Source of the DNA: an uncultured Nitrososphaera sp.
GTDB lineage: Archaea; Thermoproteota; Nitrososphaeria; Nitrososphaerales; Nitrososphaeraceae
Assembly (NCBI GenBank): GCA_946480575.1
Contig: CAMLKF010000018.1
Location: 1-28,929, forward strand
Direction of reading: 5' to 3'
DNA length: 28,929 nucleotides
Shown one piece after another: positions 1,585 to 26,312 of this stretch. Numbering within the stretch: position 1 is the stretch's first letter; each line of letters begins with the position of its first letter. Made by a program: the position numbers and the translations under genes. The notes beneath the pieces were generated by a model, which saw nothing but the letters and a program-made list of their open reading frames with translations, was not told the DNA's origin and did no database searches.

Positions 1585-3381
1585 ATGTTTGCAGCCGAGC
1601 AGTACGACGACGATGTATCGAACATTCATAGGCGCTGGTCTTTTACCAGATTAGGCCCGTCATCGTCCAAGGCATCATATGCCATTTCGCTTGCATGCGC
1701 GACCATAATCGTAGTCGTTTCTCACCTTTACTACTTCCAGCAGCAGGACGCCGCGGGGCTCATTATCTTTTTGCTGCTTGGGCTTGGCGCGCTTACCGGT
1801 GCGCACTACCTTGACTACCTTGCGCTGCGTGGCACGCCTGTCAACAAACTCTCCAAGGTGGCCCACGTCTCCGCGTTTGCCAACCTGCTGTGGGCTGTGA
1901 CAGTTCTTTTAGGAGCTGCCGCTGACTTTGTGTTTGCCAAGGCTCCTCCCGGGCTTGACTATATCGTTGCAGGGATGCTGCTTGCGGTGGGCCTGCGCAT
2001 CGGGATTTTCACGTCGGTGTTTGGAGCCGGGACCAGGCGGGCTATAGCGGTGTCGTTCATGCAGCCGGCGATCTTTCTTTTTGCATTTCTGCCTGTTTCC
2101 GCTTACGGCATGCTCGCTGAGGCAAGCTCTGCCGCTGCAGGCTTGGCGTTTGGCGCGGCATTTGTCGCGCTTGGCATTGTCTGGACTGTCGTCGCAGACA
2201 GAGCGGGCAGGCCGGGCCTCTCAAGCACGTTTGCTGTGCTGCAGGCGTTCGTTGCTGCGTGGACCGAGAACAAGACCGACAAGATGGAAGAGTTCACAGA
2301 GGCAAAGGCGCACGAGGATGTCGTGGCGACAAAAATCCTCCGCTTCACCTATGATCAGGGCGGCGGCCGCGCAGCGATAGTCCTGCCTGATGTCCACCCC
2401 GGGCCCTTTAGCACGGTCGGCGGGAGCAACCTTCCCTACGTCTTGTACGAGGCATTTGGCAGGAGCGCCCTTGTCATGCACAGCGTTTCGGATCACTCGC
2501 TCAACATCCCGTCAAAGCGCGAACTAGACAGGTATCTCTGCGGCCTTGCTAATTTAAAGCTGGTGGAAAAGGGCAGCACATGCACCGCGCCATCCCAGAT
2601 CAGGGTTGGCAGATCCACAGCGACAGGGATCGCTTTTGGAGACACTGCGACAGTCATGCTGTCGCTTGCCCCGGCAGGGATGGAGGACGTTCCGCAAAGC
2701 GTGCGGACCGAGCTCGAGTGTCATGGCTCGAGCATCGGCTTTTCAAGCGTGCTCGTGATCGACTGCCACAACGCAATGGGCAGAAACCTGAGCGACTCTG
2801 ACAGAAGCGACATTGTATCGGCTGCAAAGCAGTGCTTAGATCAGTTGAAAAAGCAGCCGCAGCAGGAATTCAAGGTCGGGTTTGCCAGCCTCGATGATGA
2901 TGCGTCGTGCCGGCTCCTCTCCCACGCAGGCGAGCTTGGACAGGCAGGTCTTGCAGTCATTGTGATAAGCGTCAGCGGCCAGGACTATGCCATCGGGTGG
3001 GCCGACTCTAACAACATGGAAAATGGGCTGCACGACCACATCGTCTCCAAGGTGGGCGGCGCTATTACTACCATGCTTGAGGTCTGCACGTCTGACACCC
3101 ATTCCACTTCTGGCAAGAGGACGAGAGAAGGATATTTTGCGCTTGGCAGCATCAGCAGTCCCTGCGACATCGTCGCAGCGTACGACGAAATGTGCCGCAA
3201 GGCCGCCGGGCGCGCAGCCAGGTCTACTTTTGAGCTTGCACACGCGCAATCGACCGTCAAGGTTATGGGCAAGCAGCAGTTTGAAGACTACTCTAGCGCG
3301 CTTGACAGGTCCATGAACGTGACCAAGGTTTTCCTCGGAATCACGGTCGCGACGTACATCGCGATGTTGATCTTTAGCTAG
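1585..3381 (+). CDS. DUF2070 family membrane protein
   Basis: A protein of about 600 residues in the archaeal DUF2070 family, function unknown. The first ~210 residues hold about six or seven hydrophobic segments (for example ISLACATIIVVVSHLYYF, AGLIIFLLLGLGALTGAHYL, FMQPAIFLFAFLPVSAYG). The rest is a large soluble domain with the family hallmarks VLPDVHPGPFSTVGGSNLP and VLVIDCHNAMG; the invariant His/Asp residues suggest a metal or phosphoryl site. A last hydrophobic helix (VFLGITVATYIAMLIF) anchors the C-terminus. I prefer the ATG at 1585; a TTG at 1573 overlapping the Sec61-beta stop is also possible and would couple the two genes. Its TAG stop overlaps the stop of the convergent nuclease gene by four bases (CTAG). 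Confidence 0.9.
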   Translation: MFAAEQYDDDVSNIHRRWSFTRLGPSSSKASYAISLACATIIVVVSHLYYFQQQDAAGLIIFLLLGLGALTGAHYLDYLALRGTPVNKLSKVAHVSAFANLLWAVTVLLGAAADFVFAKAPPGLDYIVAGMLLAVGLRIGIFTSVFGAGTRRAIAVSFMQPAIFLFAFLPVSAYGMLAEASSAAAGLAFGAAFVALGIVWTVVADRAGRPGLSSTFAVLQAFVAAWTENKTDKMEEFTEAKAHEDVVATKILRFTYDQGGGRAAIVLPDVHPGPFSTVGGSNLPYVLYEAFGRSALVMHSVSDHSLNIPSKRELDRYLCGLANLKLVEKGSTCTAPSQIRVGRSTATGIAFGDTATVMLSLAPAGMEDVPQSVRTELECHGSSIGFSSVLVIDCHNAMGRNLSDSDRSDIVSAAKQCLDQLKKQPQQEFKVGFASLDDDASCRLLSHAGELGQAGLAVIVISVSGQDYAIGWADSNNMENGLHDHIVSKVGGAITTMLEVCTSDTHSTSGKRTREGYFALGSISSPCDIVAAYDEMCRKAAGRAARSTFELAHAQSTVKVMGKQQFEDYSSALDRSMNVTKVFLGITVATYIAMLIFS

Positions 3382-6181: not shown

Positions 6182-7276
6182 ATGATAAAGATTATAAACG
6201 AGATAAAGGCAATTCCTCTCGTGAAGTATTACGCAGCGTTCTCTGGAATACCTGTTGCGGCGCTTTTGATTTCGAGTTTTATTCCACAGGCATTCGCTGC
6301 AGACCTGGCGGCGTTTCTTGTTCCCGATCGCGACAGATCCGAGGCATCCTTCATGGGCGTTAGAACCATTACGCTTAGCTATCCTGAGGGCAGCGCTATA
6401 GCTCAGGAATTGAATGGCAAGAACGAGCGCCTCACCTTTACGCTAAATGGAACTGCAGGCGGCGAAAACAATACCGGCATGAATGAAGTCATTGCTTCAA
6501 TAAACAAGGCATTGATAGAAGCAAAGAGCCCGGTCCAAGTTTCCCAAGCCGGCATGTCATACAGCGCAGTCCTGAGGGGCGGCCCGACCAGTGCGACTGT
6601 TTCCTACAAGGTCGAGCTTGACCCGACGCTTGAAAGGTTCGTCCTCCAGAGAGGAGAGGGCGGCCAATCCGGACACATCGTCGACTTGGAATGGAGGGGA
6701 ATAGACATCACGGACCCACTCGTCGTCAGTTCTCCGCAGAATGGCAAAATAGCTATCAACCAGCCAATAGGATTTTTCCAGGCGCTCCATCCTGATCTTG
6801 CAGAAAAGTTACTGAATTCAGAAGCAAGGGAAATAATGACAGACCCGATCCTGAACTTTAAGGACTTTGATACCCCCATGAGCTCGTGGCACCGCCTGTT
6901 TGACCCAGTCGGAAGCTACGGCACAGCCGTCGGTATGCAGGGGACTGAAGGAGCCAAGGCATTATCGGTATATTCGCTTGGCGAGAGCAGCCTCAGAGAA
7001 GGCACACACGCAGTGACAGAGAAGGACGCAACTGCTAACATCGATGGCGCCAATGTGAACATCCACTCTCAGAACCCGCCACCAAGCGCACAGATAACCA
7101 TTGCAGGTTACGCAAACCACCAGGAAAATGCAGGGACAGAGTTTGCCGTAGTCACTGCCGAAGCTCCAGAAGGGGTGCAGACTTCAACAGGAGGATTTCC
7201 GATTCAGGTGCTTCTTGTGCTCGGCGGCATGATGGGAGCAATAGCCATATTCATCCTCTTCAAGGCGAGAAAGTAG
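6182..7276 (+). CDS. Secreted, C-terminally membrane-anchored protein of unknown function
   Basis: I do not recognise this family beyond its general design. The N-terminus (from the ATG at 6182) has a charged start, a hydrophobic stretch (FSGIPVAALLISSFIPQAFA) and a plausible signal-peptidase site after AFA. About 290 extracellular residues of predominantly beta character follow, with Asn/Thr glycosylation-like sites (LNGTAGG). A C-terminal transmembrane helix (VLLVLGGMMGAIAIFILF) ends in the basic tail KARK. An earlier ATG at 6125 is in frame, but a signal peptide starting at 6182 is more natural and the upstream residues look untranslated. Divergent from cofD. The layout suggests a surface protein facing the pseudoperiplasm. 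Confidence 0.8.
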   Translation: MIKIINEIKAIPLVKYYAAFSGIPVAALLISSFIPQAFAADLAAFLVPDRDRSEASFMGVRTITLSYPEGSAIAQELNGKNERLTFTLNGTAGGENNTGMNEVIASINKALIEAKSPVQVSQAGMSYSAVLRGGPTSATVSYKVELDPTLERFVLQRGEGGQSGHIVDLEWRGIDITDPLVVSSPQNGKIAINQPIGFFQALHPDLAEKLLNSEAREIMTDPILNFKDFDTPMSSWHRLFDPVGSYGTAVGMQGTEGAKALSVYSLGESSLREGTHAVTEKDATANIDGANVNIHSQNPPPSAQITIAGYANHQENAGTEFAVVTAEAPEGVQTSTGGFPIQVLLVLGGMMGAIAIFILFKARK

Positions 7277-7412
7277 AGTCAGTCATCAATAGCAGTAGTA
7301 ATAATAGCAGTAGTAGTACTACTGGCAGGAGCTGCTGTCCGCTGGCTCCACTCAATTCTATTTCATAAGCTGGTGCATACACAATCTAAATCACAATGCC
7401 TATTATCCAAAA

Positions 7413-12731: not shown

Positions 12732-13337
12732 TGTCATTGTCATTAATAATAATAGTGCGTGCCAGCAGTAACCCTCCTTCTGTTCTAGGCGGGATTCCGC
12801 TGAGCAGCCAACCTGAGCTAGTGCAGGACCTTGCGCTCCATTTGGCCTTGCTCCACCCGGGTCGGCAGTTTCATTCCAGTATCAGGAACCTCAGGCTATT
12901 CGCCATCACCGTATTATTGCCCTGACTGGATTTCTTGTCTGTTCCGTCGCCAGCCGTCTCCGGCTAATTATCGCTAATTCGGGTGCCTGCAGCGAGGGAG
13001 GAGTTTCCTCTCCTTTGTTTTAGAGTAACCCGCCCACTGGCTCGCGGCATTTATTTGCAGAATTAGTATTAAAACCTGCTTAAGATATGTAGCAATTCAA
13101 TGACATTCGTAGCATGTCACTTAGAAATGAAGGTCTTAGGGGTTGAAAGGTTCGATAGTACAATGCGCAACAGGGAAAAGTAATGCGTGGAATGCACTCT
13201 CAGGAATCAGCACAGAAGATAATAATCGAAGCATGTAAAACCATGGCAGAAGTATCGATGTTTAACGATAAAGCTAAGACTGCAGTAGATAAAGCAAAAA
13301 GATATCATAACAGTAAAAAAAATAGGAGGATTGAAGG
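12732..13337. other. Gene-poor interval, no confident gene
   Basis: No ORF here convinces me. A 64-codon frame at 12731-12925 has unbalanced composition, and no second-strand frame extends past a few dozen codons. On the minus strand around 12740-12810 a short run (EGGLLLARTI) faintly recalls the end of a histidine-kinase ATPase domain, but no supporting motifs follow. A plus-strand frame from 13183 begins with a lysine-rich, helical-looking stretch (SAQKIIIEACKTMAEVS, DKAKTAVDKAKRYHNSKKN), yet it runs into the antisense of the gene at 13338 and loses coding character. The second half is clearly AT-rich compared with neighbouring genes. Confidence 0.5.
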
Positions 13338-13682
13338 TCAGCTAGTCTTTGCTACAGTTTCAGTCTTGCGGGCGGTGGTGGTGGCTCCCTTTTCTCCTTC
13401 TTCTTCTACCACTACCTGTGCTTCGCTTTTCATTTTTTTTACCGTGCCTTTTTCTTCTTCATTTTCTTCTTCATTTTCTTTTTCTTCCTCCCTCTCTTTC
13501 TTTCCTTTGACAGCTTTTATCGCTTCAATGCAAGTCGCCTTTATGTCTTCATGAGCAGTAACATTCAAGATTTCCTCTAGTACAGGAAGCGCTATTTCGC
13601 CACGAGCAGCTAATTCATTGATGGCTGTCTTCATTTCCTGCTGGCTGCGTGACCATTTTGCCATTTCCTTTAGTTCATGCAT
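13338..13682 (-). CDS. HEAT-like protein with highly charged tail
   Basis: The first ~55 residues look like one or two HEAT-type helical repeats (AKWSRSQQEMKTAINELAAR, then ALPVLEEILNVTAH and IKATCIEAIKAVKGKK). The rest is low-complexity: a Glu/Lys/Asn-rich run (KEREEEKENEEENEEEKG), an acidic VVVEEEGE patch and a Thr/Ala/Lys end, as expected for a disordered tail. A TATA-like GCATATATATTC on this strand at about 13728-13740 is some 50 bases upstream of the ATG. No known function. The antisense frame over this gene is Ser/Phe-rich because of the repeats and is not real. Confidence 0.6.
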   Translation of the reverse strand: MHELKEMAKWSRSQQEMKTAINELAARGEIALPVLEEILNVTAHEDIKATCIEAIKAVKGKKEREEEKENEEENEEEKGTVKKMKSEAQVVVEEEGEKGATTTARKTETVAKTS

Positions 13683-14579: not shown

Positions 14580-15893
14580 ATGCGACACATGCCACCGGTT
14601 ATATCGAGCCTCAGATTCCCTTTTGAGCTGAAAAAAGACCAAATTGAAGCAGCCGAGGCGTGGATACAGAACAGCTGCCGCGGCTCTGTCATCTTTAGCA
14701 CGGGGACCGGCAAGACAGAGATTGCGTTCGAGTGCGCAAGGAGGGCGGCCGGGCTATCTGGCAAGGAGTGCTTTACGATACTGTTCCTCGTGCCAAGGAT
14801 AGTGCTTATTGGGCAGAATGTAGCCCGGCTGCAGAACTATGGAATCTCTGAAGGCCATGTCGGCGTCTATTACGGCGAGCGCAAGGACATCAGGGAAATT
14901 ACGATAAGCACCTACCAGAGCGCAATCAACAACTTTGAGCTTATACGCAGGGCAGATATGGTGGTGCTCGACGAGGTCCACCTAGTAAGTGAGACCGCGG
15001 TTGAATACGACAGGATTTTCGACATCATTGTCGAGGACTCGAAAAAGGCGATACTCGGTCTCACCGCAACCATCAACGAAAAGGACCCCAAGTACCAGAC
15101 CATCCTGACTGTCGCCCCGCCGGTAAAGAGGTACATGATAAAGGACGCTGTGACTGACGGCCGGCTTGCCAAGCCCGTCGTGATGCCGGTCGAGGTCGCC
15201 TTTACGCCCGAGGAGCAAAAGAGCTACGACGAGGCAAGCAAGGCGATAAAGGATATTTCAAGAAAGCTCCAGACATATGACCCGGCCAAGATGACCAAGA
15301 TACTGATGCGCGGAGGCCTGCGGGCGTCGCTTGCCAAGATGTGGTTCGCGCAGGTGCGCAAGCGCAAGCAACTGCTGAGCGCAACGAAGCAAAAGCTGCT
15401 CAAGGCAGTCGAGATTGTCAAGAGGCACCCCGGCGAGCGGATAATGATCTTTAGCGAGACCATCGACTCTATTCAGCAATTAAGGGACCTGCTTGAGGCT
15501 GACGGGGTGCCGGCGCAGACGATACATAACGGCATCAAGCCAAGGGAGCGAAAGGAAATCCTCGACAGCTGGGGCGATAGCTACTTTCCATTACTGTCGG
15601 TGCACACACTTGAGCTCGGGTATGACGTGCCGCAGGTAGGAATTGCCATCATTATCGCAAGCACGTCTAACATCAACCAAGTCGCGCAGAGAATAGGCCG
15701 TGTCGTCAGGAAGGCAGAAGGAAAGGAGCAGGCGCTTGTCTACATCGTCTACGTCGGCAAGACCAAGGATGACAACGTGCTAACAGTCGTCAAGGCTGCA
15801 GTCGAAAAGGAAAGCGAAAGGGCTGCACGGGCCCTGTCAAGAGGCAACAAAAGGCCGACGCAGGGACAAAAGACGATTACAAAATTTTCATAA
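14580..15893 (+). CDS. XPB/ERCC3-like SF2 helicase with C-terminal PIP-box-like motif
   Basis: A superfamily-2 DNA helicase of 437 residues. A Q-motif-like start (FELKKDQIEAAEAW) leads to Walker A STGTGKT (residues 40-46), motif Ia FLVPRIVLIGQN, motif II DEVH (131-134), motif III GLTAT, motif IV-like RIMIFSETIDSIQQLRDLL, motif V ELGYDVPQVG and motif VI QRIGRVVR. This architecture resembles archaeal XPB-type helicases involved in repair or transcription-coupled processes. The protein ends QKTITKFS, which fits the PCNA-interacting pattern Q-x2-I-x2-F apart from the second aromatic. That would tie it to the sliding clamp. It converges on the 15888 gene with a six-base overlap. Confidence 0.85.
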   Translation: MRHMPPVISSLRFPFELKKDQIEAAEAWIQNSCRGSVIFSTGTGKTEIAFECARRAAGLSGKECFTILFLVPRIVLIGQNVARLQNYGISEGHVGVYYGERKDIREITISTYQSAINNFELIRRADMVVLDEVHLVSETAVEYDRIFDIIVEDSKKAILGLTATINEKDPKYQTILTVAPPVKRYMIKDAVTDGRLAKPVVMPVEVAFTPEEQKSYDEASKAIKDISRKLQTYDPAKMTKILMRGGLRASLAKMWFAQVRKRKQLLSATKQKLLKAVEIVKRHPGERIMIFSETIDSIQQLRDLLEADGVPAQTIHNGIKPRERKEILDSWGDSYFPLLSVHTLELGYDVPQVGIAIIIASTSNINQVAQRIGRVVRKAEGKEQALVYIVYVGKTKDDNVLTVVKAAVEKESERAARALSRGNKRPTQGQKTITKFS

Positions 15894-16541
15894 CATGCCT
15901 GTCGAAAGCATATCGCCGACTTGCTCAAAGTACGACTCGACGTCCATCTCGACCACCTTGCCGGCGTCGATGTTTATGAGGTAAATGATATGGAGCCGGC
16001 CGTTTAGGATCTCGTCTTCTGTTACAGGCGGGTTCCTGTAATACTTGTCGCAGAGGGCCTTGACTTCTTTTATCTCCATTGGGCGCCTGTCGCGCGGTGG
16101 CCGGCGGAACAGCTCCGGTATAGGAAGGACGCTCACTGGCGGGGTCGCAAGGACGAACTGGTTCGCGTGTTTGCTATAGCGCGCTACCTTGCTTGCAATC
16201 CTTGCAGAATAATACGACAGTGGGTCTAGCGCGTGCTCGGGCGGGATAAAGCCAGTTTCAATTTCAACTATCGCTGCGCCATCGCCTTTTTCAGCATAGA
16301 CGTCGCATATCAAAATATCAGTGAGTTGCTTTTCCACATCGACATAGTAGCCGTAGCGCACCAAGTGCTTTGCACAGACAAGCTCCATCACTGAGTGGTT
16401 TATCTTGACAAGGTTTCGCCGGTACAGGTCTATGAGCCTGTTCTTGACAAAGTTCATCCTCTCCACAATGTCCTTGGGCTCGCCGGTAGACATCCTGTCA
16501 GAGAGCGACGTCACATCCGCCGTGAAACGCTCCAGATCCAA
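15888..16541 (-). CDS. Conserved protein, possible PD-(D/E)XK-like fold
   Basis: Not recognised by name. The middle part has a restriction-endonuclease-like order: a helix (MELVCAKHLVRYGYYVDVEK), an Asp-bearing strand (TDILICDVYAEKGDG), a strand with E-x-E (AAIVEIETGFIPP), then a helix with Lys (ARIASKVARYSKHANQF). The usual D/E-x-K lysine is replaced by Glu, with Lys possibly supplied from the helix. A strand FVLATPPVSV follows. I chose the TTG at 16541: a TATA-like TTTTAAA at 16566-16572 lies about 28 bases upstream, and the ORF upstream of this box would overlap the divergent dehydrogenase promoter. Convergent with the helicase; nuclease function is inference only. Confidence 0.65.
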   Translation of the reverse strand: MDLERFTADVTSLSDRMSTGEPKDIVERMNFVKNRLIDLYRRNLVKINHSVMELVCAKHLVRYGYYVDVEKQLTDILICDVYAEKGDGAAIVEIETGFIPPEHALDPLSYYSARIASKVARYSKHANQFVLATPPVSVLPIPELFRRPPRDRRPMEIKEVKALCDKYYRNPPVTEDEILNGRLHIIYLINIDAGKVVEMDVESYFEQVGDMLSTGML

Positions 16542-16642: not shown

Positions 16643-17800
16643 ATGTCGATCTCAACTACCATTAACAGGATAGCTGTCCTTGGCTCAGGCATCATGGGTC
16701 ACGGGATCGCGCAGGTCTCGGCGATGGCCGGCTACAGCGTGGTCCTCCGCGACATTGAGCAATCATTCCTTGACAAGGCGATGGAAAAGATAAAGTGGTC
16801 GCTCAACAAGCTCGTCGAAAAAGAAAAGCTGACACAGGCTGACGCCGACAGGATATTTGCGCGAATTACTCCGGTAATTGACCTGAAGCAGGCGCTCAGT
16901 GGCGCAGACCTGCTGATTGAAGCCGTGCCAGAGGACATGAACGTGAAAAAGAAGGTGTACGCAGAGGTAGACAGCGTGGCAGATAGCAAAATGCTTTACG
17001 CGTCAAACACTAGCACGCTTCCCATAACAGAAATGGCGGCGCTCACCAATAGGCCAGATCGCTTTATCGGCCTGCACTTCTTCAACCCGCCCCAGCTAAT
17101 GCCGCTTGTCGAGGTCATACCTGGTGGCAGGACAAACGACAGCATGGTCGCAATGGCGATGGAGTTTGTGAAAAAGGTGGGCAAGCAGCCGGTGCTCTGC
17201 AAAAAGGACGTCGCGGGCTTTATCGTCAACCGCGTCTTTATTCCGCTTGTGCACGAGGCAGTCTACTGCCAAGAGCGGGATAATGTGCCAATGAGCACTA
17301 TCGACTCGGCAGTCAAATTCAAGATGTCGTTTCCCATGGGGATATTTGAGCTTGCCGACTATACCGGCCTTGATGTGATACACAAGGCGACTGTAGAGAT
17401 GCACTCCCGTGACAGCAAGGTCATCAATCCCCATCCCAAGGTAAAGCAGCTGTTTGACGAAAAGAACCTCGGCCAAAAGACCGGCAAGGGCTTTTACGAG
17501 TACAAGGGCGACAAGTATGAGCGTGTAAACCTGACAGAGCAAGAGGCTGCGAAATATGACCCTATCAAGCTCCTTGCAGTTGCGGCCAACAACGCCGCAT
17601 GGCTCATTTCAAACGGCGTATGCAGCAGGGAGGACCTAGAGAAGGCATTAACGCTGGGCATGGGACTGAAGAAAGAGCTGTTTGCAACGGTCGAAGAATT
17701 TGGCGCGGGAAACGTTGTCCAGACGCTGAAAGAGCTCGCAGCAAAGCACGGCTCATTCTACGAGCCTGACTCGTATCTCGTCAACTATCGGGATCATTAG
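16643..17800 (+). CDS. 3-hydroxyacyl-CoA / 3-hydroxybutyryl-CoA dehydrogenase
   Basis: An NAD-dependent dehydrogenase oxidising (S)-3-hydroxyacyl-CoA. The Rossmann fold has AVLGSGIMGHGIAQVSAMAG (residues 11-30). LLIEAVPEDMNVKKKV, ASNTSTLPITEMA and the catalytic His/Glu segment GLHFFNPPQLMPLVEVIPG follow, then GFIVNRVFIPLVHEA. The C-terminal domain has LADYTGLDV and GQKTGKGFYEY. 385 residues is slightly longer than the simple bacterial enzyme because of an additional C-terminal segment. In ammonia-oxidising archaea this activity converts 3-hydroxybutyryl-CoA to acetoacetyl-CoA late in the 3HP/4HB carbon-fixation cycle, which is the likely role; fatty-acid breakdown is the alternative. Divergent from the 15888 gene. 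Confidence 0.93.
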   Translation: MSISTTINRIAVLGSGIMGHGIAQVSAMAGYSVVLRDIEQSFLDKAMEKIKWSLNKLVEKEKLTQADADRIFARITPVIDLKQALSGADLLIEAVPEDMNVKKKVYAEVDSVADSKMLYASNTSTLPITEMAALTNRPDRFIGLHFFNPPQLMPLVEVIPGGRTNDSMVAMAMEFVKKVGKQPVLCKKDVAGFIVNRVFIPLVHEAVYCQERDNVPMSTIDSAVKFKMSFPMGIFELADYTGLDVIHKATVEMHSRDSKVINPHPKVKQLFDEKNLGQKTGKGFYEYKGDKYERVNLTEQEAAKYDPIKLLAVAANNAAWLISNGVCSREDLEKALTLGMGLKKELFATVEEFGAGNVVQTLKELAAKHGSFYEPDSYLVNYRDH

Positions 17801-17845
17801 CTGCAATGCTAGAAGCAGAAGCATTTACGGAAAATCTTTAATCTG

Positions 17846-17853
17846 TTATATAT
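17846..17853 (+). promoter_or_regulatory. TATA box of the structured RNA candidate
   Basis: TTATATAT lies about 25 bases before GACUGGC at 17871, the 5' arm of the terminal helix of the predicted RNA. This is the normal archaeal distance from TATA box to transcription start. No open reading frame begins at a suitable distance. Confidence 0.55.
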
Positions 17854-17870
17854 GCGTATGACGGGGTCTC

Positions 17871-18107
17871 GACTGGCCAAAAGAGAGGAACGATGTGCCA
17901 CGCAGAATCTGTGCAGCGGGTAAAGGCTCGCTGCGTCCAAAGACGCAAGCAGTTGCCATCTCTCTTAGGCGCACAGGTAAAAACCGCGTGTTCCACGGAA
18001 CACGTGAGCGAGTCTAAACCTGGAATGGCAAGGGCTAACCACGGAGTTGCCACGGAACCTGTGATGGCGACCTTGACGGGAAAGCCGCATCTGTTCGAGC
18101 GCCAGTC
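17871..18107 (+). ncRNA. Structured non-coding RNA of about 240 nt, identity unresolved
   Basis: The 313-base gap between the dehydrogenase and the convergent SLOG-like gene contains dense RNA-like pairing. Ends: GACUGGC 17871-17877 with GCCAGUC 18101-18107. Internal pairs: AAGAGA 17881-17886 with UCUCUU 17961-17966 and GAUG 17892-17895 with CAUC 17957-17960; GCAGCG 17913-17918 with CGCUGC 17929-17934; CACAGGU 17972-17978 with ACCUGUG 18057-18063; CGUGUUC 17987-17993 with GAACACG 17998-18004; UGGCAA 18026-18031 with UUGCCA 18047-18052. An alternative pairing GAUGUG 17892-17897 with CGCAUC 18086-18091 next to GAGGAA (17885-17890) recalls the CR-I/P4 region of RNase P RNA. However, P3 and the 3' CR-V box are not evident, and the SRP RNA GGAAG-type loop is missing. 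The true ends may extend a few bases. Confidence 0.6.
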
Positions 18108-18113
18108 CGGCTT

Positions 18114-18629
18114 TCACTTCTCCTTATTTGTGACGGCGTCCAGAATTGCCTGCACCGCCGCCTTTGGATCCTTGGCCACTATTATGGGCACGCGGTTTCG
18201 CTCGTCCAGGTACTTGCCTCCGTACATGTCTGCGACCCCGCCGCTGCCAGCTATTGCCACTATGGTCTTATACGTCATGTAGCCGACTCCCATTTCAATA
18301 AGGGTACCGACTCCCCCTCCTATCGCGATTATCCCATCTGCCGAAGAGCCGACTACAAAGTTCCTTGCATGGCCGATACCAGTGCAAATGACGATGTCAC
18401 AGAACTCGTTTGCGTACGAGAACTCTTCCTGTGGTATTATCCCAACCGTCGTGCCGCCGTTCTCCTTTGCGCCCTTGCAGGCAGACTCCATGACGCCACC
18501 AAGCCCGCCGCACATCAAAATTGCGCCGGCGCATGCGATCTCTTTGCCAATTTCATACGCTATCCTTCTTGCTTCGTCTGTGCACCTGTCGTTGTTGTAG
18601 CCAATGACTGCGATCTGTAGCTTGCGCAC
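18114..18629 (-). CDS. TIGR00725-like SLOG/Rossmann nucleotide-binding protein
   Basis: Related to the TIGR00725/lysine-decarboxylase-like (LOG/SLOG) fold, Rossmann proteins that bind nucleotides or their ribosyl derivatives. The pattern is clear: LQIAVIGYNNDRCTDEARRI at the start, then ILMCGGLGGVMESACKGAKE (residues about 38-57), TTVGIIPQEE, ICTGIGHARNFVVGSSADG and IIAIGGGVGTLIEMG. LOG enzymes release cytokinin bases by phosphoribohydrolase activity through a PGGxGTxxE motif; here it is GGGVGTLIE, so activity is uncertain. Start is a GTG at 18629 with a CTATAAT box about 26 bases upstream. Divergent from the phosphoribosyltransferase. 171 residues. Confidence 0.85.
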   Translation of the reverse strand: MRKLQIAVIGYNNDRCTDEARRIAYEIGKEIACAGAILMCGGLGGVMESACKGAKENGGTTVGIIPQEEFSYANEFCDIVICTGIGHARNFVVGSSADGIIAIGGGVGTLIEMGVGYMTYKTIVAIAGSGGVADMYGGKYLDERNRVPIIVAKDPKAAVQAILDAVTNKEK

Positions 18630-20718: not shown

Positions 20719-20793
20719 GGATGGGTAGTCTAGCCTGGTTATGATACCTGTCTCACACACAGGTGGTCGAGAGTTCGAATCTCTCCCCATCCA
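20719..20793 (+). tRNA. tRNA-Val (anticodon CAC)
   Basis: A full cloverleaf can be drawn: acceptor GGATGGG (20719-20725) with CCCATCC (20786-20792) and discriminator A at 20793; anticodon stem CCTGT/ACAGG around loop CTCACAC, giving anticodon CAC at 20754-20756; variable loop TGGTC; T-arm GAGAG-TTCGAAT-CTCTC. The D-stem starts GTCT after T8-A9. CCA is not encoded. A short T run (CTTTT) follows at 20794-20798. No intron is visible. It reads the valine codon GUG. Confidence 0.95.
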
Positions 20794-24166: not shown

Positions 24167-24934
24167 TCACACGAAATAGCCCGCGTACCTGGCCTTGCCT
24201 ATCATCCTGCCGTTTTCCTTATCGCGAAAGATGGCAGTAGAGTCCTTTGGCACCAGACCTTCCGGCCTCACGAGGTGGGGCGTGCCGTAGATGCTGGCAA
24301 GGACGTACTCGTAGCGCCACAGCAAATACCGGTCTTGATCAGTCATCAGGCCCTTAACCGGCACCGATGGCTCAGAGTGGCCACCTTCAAGCAGGGGGTT
24401 GTCGTGCCACACCGGGTACTTGGACCATTCCGAGTCGAGCGACTCGGGCCTGTTTCTGGCAAAGAGCAGCGACGGCCTGTATGCCACTATTATGCTAAAT
24501 GCCACCATAGACGCTCCGAGGAAAAAGTGCATATTGGCAGCTGTTGCCACTGTCCCCGGCGAATACAGCATCCACGTAATCCGGGTATCTCCAAAGTATG
24601 CCTCGCCCGGCTCGGGAGTCGAGTAATACGGCAGAATTATCGAGTTGTGGATTAGGACAATGCCCAGTACACATATGATAAGGGGCATCAGTCCCTTCGA
24701 TACCACCGACAGGGCAATAAATGCGACGAGCACTATCGCGCTTGCCTGAACGACGTTTACGATTATTGGGTTGACGACTTGGAAGGTCGAGGTGAAAAGG
24801 TACATGAAGAACAAGAGCGTGATGCAAACGATGTCAAGCGCAAACAGCCTTGACTGGTTGCGGTAGAACCAAGGATACATTCTGCTCAAAGCTGCTTTCC
24901 TTGTGCCCTGTGGAGCAGAAAATCCTGTTGCCAT
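24167..24934 (-). CDS. Four-helix membrane protein with C-terminal soluble domain
   Basis: Unknown function. Hydrophobic helices lie at about residues 29-52, 57-78, 82-102 and 133-152 (for example RLFALDIVCITLLFFMYLF, GLMPLIICVLGIVLIHNSII). About 100 mostly polar residues follow, with SEWSKYPVWHDNPLLEGGHS and TDQDRYLLWRYEYVLASIYG. The pattern suggests a conserved archaeal membrane protein; no transport or catalytic motif is evident. The ATG at 24934 is used, but an AT-rich TATA-like box only 8-18 bases before it suggests that the real start could be the ATG at 24880 (MYPWFYRNQ). Divergent from the coiled-coil gene. Confidence 0.75.
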   Translation of the reverse strand: MATGFSAPQGTRKAALSRMYPWFYRNQSRLFALDIVCITLLFFMYLFTSTFQVVNPIIVNVVQASAIVLVAFIALSVVSKGLMPLIICVLGIVLIHNSIILPYYSTPEPGEAYFGDTRITWMLYSPGTVATAANMHFFLGASMVAFSIIVAYRPSLLFARNRPESLDSEWSKYPVWHDNPLLEGGHSEPSVPVKGLMTDQDRYLLWRYEYVLASIYGTPHLVRPEGLVPKDSTAIFRDKENGRMIGKARYAGYFV

Positions 24935-25019
24935 GGCACAATATATAATGAGTAGCTGCGCATTAAGCGTTACGCGATCGGAAGGTTTTTTGAGTCAGTC
25001 GGCGAGAAACTATACCATA

Positions 25020-26312
25020 GTGCCTCCGTTCGGGCTTTTCAAGAAGAAGGAAGGCAATGCGCCGCCAGACGTGCAGGCGGTTTCTGCGCCTGCTGCAGGT
25101 GCTCTATCCATACAGCAGGCCCAGGAGCTTTTGCGGCAGATCGAATCGGCAAGAGCAAAAGAGCTGGCGGCCCGCCTTGTGAAGGTAAAAGAGTCCGCTG
25201 CGCAGTCCCTCAGAATTATAGACAAGATAGCAGGCGACATGGAGCGTGAAAAGATCAAGCTGGAGGGCCTCGAGCAGAGGCTCAAGTCGGTGGTTGAAAA
25301 CTCCAGAAGGACGGTGGTGGCGTCGCTCAGGCGCGAAGTGTCGTCCGAGCTTCCACTGCCCCAGTCCGCAAATGACGCCAGAAAGTTCAAGGAAAGGTTT
25401 GAAACGATGATGAAGCGCTTTGGAGAGGTCAGCGGCTCGCACGGCAGGACGCTCAACAGCTTTATGAAAAAGCACGCCAGCAGGATGAAGGACGAGTTTG
25501 AAGCGCTGACGAAACTGCTGAACGAAACAAAGGAGATAATGTCAGGGTTCGATCAAAAGCGTGAGCCGCTTGTGAAATGCAGCGGCATACTGAACACGGC
25601 CTCGCAAAAGGCGTCGTCCATCAAGTCTAGCGAGGCGTACCTGCAGAGCGCGGAAAAAGAGGCTGTAGGTGTTGAAGGTGAGCTCGAAAGGCTAAAGGGC
25701 GAACTGGCCGCGCTGAAGGAGTCGGCGGAATTTGGACAGGCGTCTGCAATTGCGCAAAAGGTTGCCGAGGCCGAAAGGCAGCAGGAGCAGCTTCGCTCCG
25801 AAGTGCACGACCTCTTTTCCCACGCCTCCCGGGCGTTTACAAAGTATTCGTATGGCGTTTCGAGAGAAACTGAAGCGCGCCTGCGGATGATGTCTGACGA
25901 GCCCTGGAAGGTGCTATACGAAAACGACATATTGCTGTACTCTTCGCTCCTGCTTGAGATCCGCAAGTCGATAGGCTCTGGCAACATCCAGCTGAAAGAT
26001 TCTGACAGAATGCTGCAATACCTTGACGCCATAGTGGAGTCGTTGCCGGAGCTTCATGGAAGGGCGCAGCACATAAAGGAACAGATCGATTCCCTGCGGC
26101 AGGGCGACAGCAGCGGCAGCGCCGTGCTCCTGGCCGCAGAGATGGAAGAAAAGGCCGTTCAGCTTGCCGAAGAGCTGGGAAGGATCAGGCAGGTTCAGGA
26201 GCAGCAGAGGCGCCAGATAGCAGAAAAAAGCGCAGAGGTGGACTCGCTGCTAAAGGAAGCCAGCGGGATCCTATACGAGCTAACAGGCCAGAGGTATTCA
26301 ATCCAGTACTAG
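25020..26312 (+). CDS. Large coiled-coil protein
   Basis: About 430 residues, nearly all helical. It begins PPFGLFKKKEG, followed by a short Ala/Pro linker and long heptad-like stretches (ELLRQIESARAKELAARLVK, DMEREKIKLEGLEQRLKSVV, EAVGVEGELERLKGELAALK, MEEKAVQLAEELGRIRQVQE). A less regular centre (EPWKVLYENDILLYSSLLLE) may be a globular hinge. No membrane helix, no ATPase motifs, so not an SMC protein. Roles in cell shape, division or chromosome structure are possible but not shown. The GTG at 25020 is chosen because FGLFKKKEG just after it looks like a native N-terminus, and the preceding 39 codons overlap the divergent gene's start and promoter. Confidence 0.75.
   Translation: MPPFGLFKKKEGNAPPDVQAVSAPAAGALSIQQAQELLRQIESARAKELAARLVKVKESAAQSLRIIDKIAGDMEREKIKLEGLEQRLKSVVENSRRTVVASLRREVSSELPLPQSANDARKFKERFETMMKRFGEVSGSHGRTLNSFMKKHASRMKDEFEALTKLLNETKEIMSGFDQKREPLVKCSGILNTASQKASSIKSSEAYLQSAEKEAVGVEGELERLKGELAALKESAEFGQASAIAQKVAEAERQQEQLRSEVHDLFSHASRAFTKYSYGVSRETEARLRMMSDEPWKVLYENDILLYSSLLLEIRKSIGSGNIQLKDSDRMLQYLDAIVESLPELHGRAQHIKEQIDSLRQGDSSGSAVLLAAEMEEKAVQLAEELGRIRQVQEQQRRQIAEKSAEVDSLLKEASGILYELTGQRYSIQY

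Follow-up and report, generated by a model that had tools for sequence, protein, structure and literature searches.

A free-standing structured RNA gene of Nitrososphaeria that belongs to no Rfam family

Introduction

What occupies the gap between two convergent genes in an uncultured Nitrososphaera? To our knowledge, few large structured RNAs have been described in archaea outside the universal ones. A preliminary description of a 28,929-nt stretch of DNA (assembly GCA_946480575.1, contig CAMLKF010000018.1, positions 1–28,929; hereafter the window) placed in this gap a structured RNA gene of ~240 nt with its own promoter, either a highly divergent RNase P RNA or a thaumarchaeal non-coding RNA (ncRNA) class outside the standard ones. 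Here we compare the locus with its relatives and with known RNAs. As judged by sequence comparison, positions 17869–18111 (+) are a free-standing structured RNA gene without an Rfam family, and our best guess is that it encodes a ribonucleoprotein (RNP)-type RNA with a variable recognition arm.

Results

The locus and its relatives

The gap lies between a 3-hydroxyacyl-CoA dehydrogenase gene (16643–17800 +, Pfam 3HCDH) and a SLOG/TIGR00725 gene (18114–18629 −). A search based on the neighbouring dehydrogenase yielded 80 loci. The preliminary description had proposed aligning the same gap in related genomes, and the RNA is indeed found there, downstream of the dehydrogenase, in the Nitrososphaera loci L001 and L002 (83–85% identity). 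Loci L003–L006 have only a short gap at the corresponding place. In L007, the same gene place (7190–7395) retains only the RNA ends and the loop of the P2b hairpin, much decayed and giving a partial match. This is probably a decaying copy, which indicates that the RNA can decay or be lost; L007 entered no model.

Covariance models were built from 12 (R1), 30 (R2) and 32 (R3) sequences. The window copy, a member of the training sets of both R1 and R2, matches these two models over its full length (17869–18111 +), scoring 218.7 bits with R1 and 180.7 bits with R2.

Conserved fold

Folding of the window copy by itself gave a z-score of −2.55 on the plus strand (4 of 200 shuffles as stable) and −1.43 on the minus strand (16 of 200). 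Stability of a single sequence is only suggestive, and the comparison of relatives decides. RNAalifold predicted 49 pairs from 12 sequences, 21 of them with compensatory change, and 39 pairs from 37 sequences, 35 with compensatory change. The minimum-energy fold of the window copy contains only 7 of 39 consensus pairs; the internal helices of the preliminary description were thus mostly not the conserved ones. A covariation scan placed eight of its ten top column pairs in the helices named below when standard pairing of 75% or more was required, and six of ten when it was not; equally high scores were also reached by some column pairs that lack standard pairing.

The revised fold has 46 pairs. 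In 30 sequences, 42 of them show double-sided changes and 90.6% of cells are paired, compared with 33–45% in controls with slid partners; none of 500 shuffles reached as high a value. In 19 deep sequences outside the R2 training set, 41 of 46 pairs show double-sided changes and 92.8% of cells are paired, and a combined set of 32 sequences has such changes at 43 of 46 pairs. The alignments were fitted to the models and are therefore biased towards the models' fold. Despite this, the fold is hardly in doubt because of the slid-partner controls and the size of the effect. Relatives both conserve and compensate the structure, so that the ~240-nt structured RNA claimed for this gap is borne out.

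There is little doubt that the predicted fold is a four-way junction formed by an end helix (P1/P1b) and the P2, P3 and P4 arms. P1 pairs 17871–17877 with 18101–18107, a seven-pair helix that had been described exactly right from the single sequence: 203 of 210 cells are paired in 30 sequences, all seven pairs are intact in 22 of 29 relatives, and double-sided changes occur at all seven. P1b pairs 17878–17881 with 18094–18097 and has one A·C mismatch in the window copy. P2 (17896–17902 with 17944–17950) is mostly broken in the window copy but good in distant relatives; it is the weakest helix in the 30 sequences (74.8% paired) and reaches 96.0% in the 19 deep ones. The P2b hairpin (17911–17936, strands 17911–17921 and 17926–17936) has an apex, GUAAAGGC, that is strongly conserved in close relatives. 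P3 pairs 17953–17959 with 18025–18031, and the apical part of its arm (17960–18024) is variable, showing the greatest divergence between copies within one genome. The P4 arm (18043–18074, strands 18043–18052 and 18065–18074) is marked by covariation. Mismatches at 7 of the 46 consensus pairs (five in P2, one in P1b and one in P4) suggest that the window copy may be drifting, although it still attains its R2 score as one of the training sequences.

When 24,531 possible five-pair helices were scanned in 29 sequences, 39 reached 85% pairing or more. Among these, seven or more double-change cells occurred in P1, P2b, P4 and P3, the last with an extension, and in three weaker helices: GAAGA/UCUUC, AUAGGU/ACCUAU and GGCUG/UAGUC, of which the last would link strands of P4 and P1. 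The GAAGA/UCUUC helix belonged to the first fold from 12 sequences but gave way to P1b, the pairs of which were prominent in the covariation scan. It too is supported, by double changes at four of five pairs, and an exchange between this helix and P1b is possible. AUAGGU/ACCUAU corresponds in the window to a tentative, modestly supported loop–loop contact found in the pairing scan, in which ACAGGU (17973–17978) would pair with ACCUGU (18057–18062); two of its six pairs have double changes, a value that 343 of 500 shuffles reach.

A switch or pseudoknot had also been envisaged, in which AGGCUCGCU pairs with AGCGAGUCU (18007–18015). The former lies at 17924–17932 rather than at 17922–17930, and the full pairing occurs in 0 of 27 relatives, which leaves the switch unsupported.

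Near-invariant core and palindromic loop

At the base of the P4 arm lies a core, GGGCAAACC ... GGAAAGCCACAU, that is nearly invariant in 32 diverse sequences. The window copy has GGGCUAACC (18032–18040) and GGGAAAGCCGCAUC (18078–18091) where most relatives have GGGCAAACC and GGAAAGCCACAU, respectively. The two strands can pair around an A-rich 3×3 internal loop; the five possible pairs are formed in 97.5% of cases, with one covarying position, the other positions being uninformative.

Separately, the internal loop of P2 contains a self-complementary stretch (17903–17911 and its counterparts in relatives) that changes yet stays palindromic in several relatives, with the variants CAGAAUCUG, CAGAUCUG and CGGCGCCG (seen by eye, together with one covarying column pair). 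This palindrome could be a dimer contact or a mini-hairpin.

Gene signals and genomic neighbourhood

The 54-locus and 55-locus counts below, as well as A6, exclude L137, L149 and L150, which are cut by contig ends, and L143, L144 and L118, which are weak; A6 also excludes L141, and A10 comprises 32 of the copies. Upstream of the RNA, the AT fraction over 54 loci peaks at 0.82 (positions −30 to −25) and 0.83 (−12 to −7), and an exact TTWAWA starts at −40 to −23 in 17 of the 54, compared with 5 and 1 in two control stretches. Downstream, TTTT occurs within 30 nt in 29 of 54 loci, compared with 10 in the next 30 nt, and the T fraction of the first 15 nt is 0.51. Over the 54 loci, the sequence thus carries statistical signals of a promoter and a terminator of its own.

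In the window, the TATA-like box TTTAAT (17837–17842 +), ~32 nt upstream of the RNA start, aligns with TTAAAT in L001 and L002. A promoter-like element shared with relatives is thus present, but the box originally named, TTATATAT (17846–17853 +), has no counterpart in L001 and L002. The shared position of TTTAAT agrees with a putative transcript start near 17871. At the other end, the convergent SLOG gene reaches with its 3' end into a T-rich stretch (18112–18130 +) that is a likely terminator.

A protein-coding gene was rejected, as had been proposed from the lack of a coding ORF: in each frame, just 1–8 of 54 sequences are free of stops across the RNA. The nearest downstream ORF (at least 90 aa, within 600 nt) lies on the same strand in 20 of 55 loci and on the opposite strand in 25, and none is present in 10. 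We scanned 118 of 128 flanking ORFs (at least 120 aa; loci other than the window), and no Pfam family was found in more than four of the 118. Varied neighbours and the lack of a fixed downstream gene make a role in cis unlikely, and the RNA probably acts in trans. In the Nitrososphaera loci, the RNA often stays beside the dehydrogenase or the SLOG gene.

One neighbour recurs among the deep loci. The gene at 15891–16541 (−) encodes an uncharacterised conserved archaeal protein without a Pfam, NCBIfam or PDB sequence match, and in 11 of 20 such loci it is found no more than ~1.5 kb away from the RNA. Its predicted structure (pLDDT 92.1) shows, in our reading, a PD-(D/E)XK-like order of elements. 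Its closest structural match is an entry for a toxin/immunity complex (E 6.5e-4), and XPB–Bax1 (best E 0.085) is among the weak ones. We considered this protein as a partner of the RNA. It is more likely a repair nuclease, since its gene adjoins an XPB-like helicase gene (14580–15893 +), and perhaps the Bax1-like nuclease of the lineage. We attribute its recurrent proximity to the RNA to an old gene order and do not take it to prove a partnership. Elsewhere in the window, two ORFs are without a Pfam match at E 0.001, 24903–26312 (+; 469 aa) and 13183–13554 (+; 123 aa).

Distribution and copies within genomes

Against 70 genomes of the host's taxonomic family, BLAST matches were strong for G001, G002 and G036 but weaker for G040, G033 and G044, the last two having several each. 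R1 matched 24 of these 70 genomes, six of which had supplied its training copies, with up to eight matches in one genome; it also matched 4 of 398 genomes of a phylum sample in which only five candidates were scored per genome. Of 41 genomes of the order, R2 matched 16, two of which had supplied training sequences and 14 of which had not; it also matched 5 of 37 genomes behind other dehydrogenase loci. Among 39 genomes of the host's family, R2 matched four, all previously matched by R1, and the remaining 35, which were R1-negative, again gave no match.

R3 matched 2 of 81 genomes of a phylum sample, G404 (training) and G089 (new), and 10 of 120 genomes of a class sample, six of them from training; G521 and, at only E 0.004, G336 had not been seen before. 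Among 39 genomes without an earlier R2 match, R3 matched three, weakly (22.6–24.9 bits). All three are Nitrosotalea, including Ca. N. devanaterra (L038/G159), and the RNA has neighbours common to all of them; the two further Nitrosotalea genomes in this set (L033/G506 and L036/G508) gave no R3 match. No match was obtained in the Nitrosopumilus, Nitrosopelagicus, Nitrosomarinus or marine group I genomes of the sets searched, nor with R3 in eight small genomes for which every candidate was scored. The genome samples overlap and the first-look filter scores part of the candidates only, so that absences are not firm. The family is spread patchily over the class Nitrososphaeria.

Some larger genomes (3.8–4.0 Mb) hold several copies of the RNA in different places. 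G044 has eight R1 matches, two of them weak or partial and six full copies. Among five of the six full copies, identity is 0.90–0.96 in P1, the P2 arm, the P3 stem and the core junctions, 0.75 in the P4 arm and 0.56 in the P3 tip. The copies in G033 follow the same order less markedly (tip 0.55, other regions 0.63–0.88).

Two copies have unusual neighbours. In L114 (4005–4478 −), a G044 copy directly adjoins a pstB-like gene that breaks off after ~78 of the 248 model positions. G044 has two complete pstB genes elsewhere, and the truncation possibly reflects rearrangement, insertion or misassembly. In L177, a copy (1501–1728 −) lies 150 nt downstream of a same-strand TnpB-type gene (1881–3047 −; PF07282, 1.2e-22). 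Transposon guide RNAs sit in such places; the proximity is probably due to chance.

Known RNAs and rival explanations

An Rfam 15 scan of the window located a tRNA (20719–20793) and, at 12757–13045 (−), a full-length RNase P RNA of the ordinary archaeal type (RF00373, 184.4 bits). Against all 4227 Rfam families at E up to 10, the candidate had no credible match; its sole hit, at 16 bits against a gathering score of 51, was a fragment of a miRNA model. When the loci of 12 distant relatives were scanned at E up to 5, the RNA matched neither RNase P nor SRP models; L160 alone gave a match on it, to part of an lncRNA model (21.1 bits; gathering score 80), and a distinct gene accounts for the SRP match in that locus. 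Ten loci had no matches at the Rfam gathering thresholds.

A very divergent housekeeping RNA, either RNase P or SRP RNA, is hardly credible in view of these data. The candidate does recall archaeal RNase P RNA in its size, its closing helix and the GAGGAA at 17885–17890, near the 5' end, which is present as the preliminary description had noted. However, the possible pairing likened there to the CR-I/P4 core, GAUGUG (17892–17897) with CGCAUC (18086–18091), is complete in 0 of 29 relatives, and a separate normal RNase P RNA gene in the window and the absence of any RNase P model match at E up to 10 led us to reject this identity. With archaeal SRP RNA (RF01857) the candidate shares its size and the form of a free-standing stable RNA gene. 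It was rejected as SRP RNA on its lack of a model match at E up to 10 and on another SRP RNA elsewhere in eight of eight genomes tested, seven above the Rfam cut-off. Multiple copies in several genomes likewise speak against a housekeeping RNA. The second suggestion, a thaumarchaeal ncRNA class outside the standard ones, is supported by the missing Rfam match, the many relatives in the lineage and the strong covariation.

That the RNA acts in cis on a neighbouring gene, as a leader or riboswitch, we consider very improbable. A junction fold with a near-invariant core would suit such a role, and the core GGGCAAACC/GGAAAGCC (18032–18040 and 18078–18086) resembles the P2 base of the c-di-GMP-I (GEMM-I) riboswitch: in both, GGGCAAACC ... 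AAAGCC surrounds an A-rich internal loop where an arm begins. This is perhaps a shared structural motif; the overall junction of that riboswitch differs from that of the candidate. Unlike a leader, the candidate has no fixed gene downstream: only 20 of the 55 loci have their nearest downstream ORF on the strand of the RNA, and the kind of ORF varies. The gene that follows the window copy is convergent, and the RNA is succeeded by a T-rich end. No Rfam riboswitch model matches, and c-di-GMP-I in particular was rejected for want of a GEMM-I match among the 4227 families at E up to 10. RNase P RNA, SRP RNA and a riboswitch are not live alternatives; a mobile RNA or a ribozyme is. That a mobile or amplifying element (SINE-like, or associated with a retron or transposon) has spread the copies is unlikely in our estimation, although some genomes have several dispersed copies, several matches lie at contig ends, as repeats would give, one G044 copy adjoins the truncated pstB-like gene, and in L177 a same-strand TnpB-type gene (PF07282) precedes the RNA by 150 nt. 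Of the families that at least two of the 118 flanking ORFs match, none is a transposase or reverse-transcriptase family; this covers the 25 families listed, with further single-member families, such as that of the L177 TnpB-type gene, lying beyond them. Moreover, the flanks differ between copies and, by eye, have no evident ends in common outside the RNA, several Nitrososphaera copies lie beside the same genes, and the constraint on the fold over deep lineages exceeds a parasite's needs. We also give a low probability to a trans-acting ribozyme with the near-invariant, unpaired core as its active site. The little-changed GGGCAAACC/GGAAAGCCACAU in 32 diverse sequences and a junction architecture with a possible loop–loop contact would fit a catalyst. 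Yet no context of self-cleavage or splicing is apparent, and a core that binds a ligand or protein would look alike.

Two further comparisons concern archaeal RNAs. Like archaeal H/ACA guide RNAs, the candidate has an ACA directly after a stem (GCC-ACA), 3' of the P4 base, but it lacks an Rfam match and has a conserved 3×3 A-rich loop in place of variable guide pockets. Tan1 is an abundant, 229-nt ncRNA of marine group II Euryarchaeota with unknown function, for which the accessible part of the report describes a complex conserved secondary structure based on six homologues (PMC5069720). Compared by description alone, it shares with the candidate the nature of an archaeal structured ncRNA of similar size, but that part of the report gives it only from Ca. 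Thalassoarchaea. The literature searched, which includes the accessible parts of PMC2864571 and PMC5069720, few subscription journals and no preprints, contains no description of the candidate RNA. On this basis the RNA family is new, although Tan1 may be a distant relative and the function of the RNA may prove to be of a known kind.

Discussion

Our full account of the locus is the following. It is the gene of a ~240-nt structured ncRNA, with a predicted archaeal promoter of its own and a T-rich 3' side, and the RNA would be transcribed and act in trans. The RNA folds into a four-way junction comprising the end helix P1/P1b, P2 with its conserved hairpin loop, P3 with its variable tip and P4 with the core at its base. 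Less certainly, the conserved core and the junction would serve as the docking site for one or more shared proteins in an RNP, and the P3 tip would recognise a target or partner. The tip is proposed as the recognition part because it diverges most between copies of one genome; alternatively, it could simply be unconstrained. We hold this account, as a whole, tentatively and at somewhat short of an even chance.

A broader reading is that of an ancient RNA class of Nitrososphaeria with the core of an unrecognised RNP or ribozyme, paralogues that carry exchangeable recognition arms in some lineages, loss or change beyond recognition in marine ones and a possible counterpart (Tan1) in marine Euryarchaeota. 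This is conceivable, but we would sooner expect it to fail than to hold.

A 240-nt RNA that compensatory changes preserve in several lineages of a single archaeal class presents a concrete and testable gap, and the RNA models can be used to annotate further genomes. If the reading of an ancient RNP or ribozyme core is true, the RNA would be about as complex as RNase P RNA or SRP RNA. It would then add a basic cellular component to archaea among which are ammonia oxidizers important for the nitrogen cycle.
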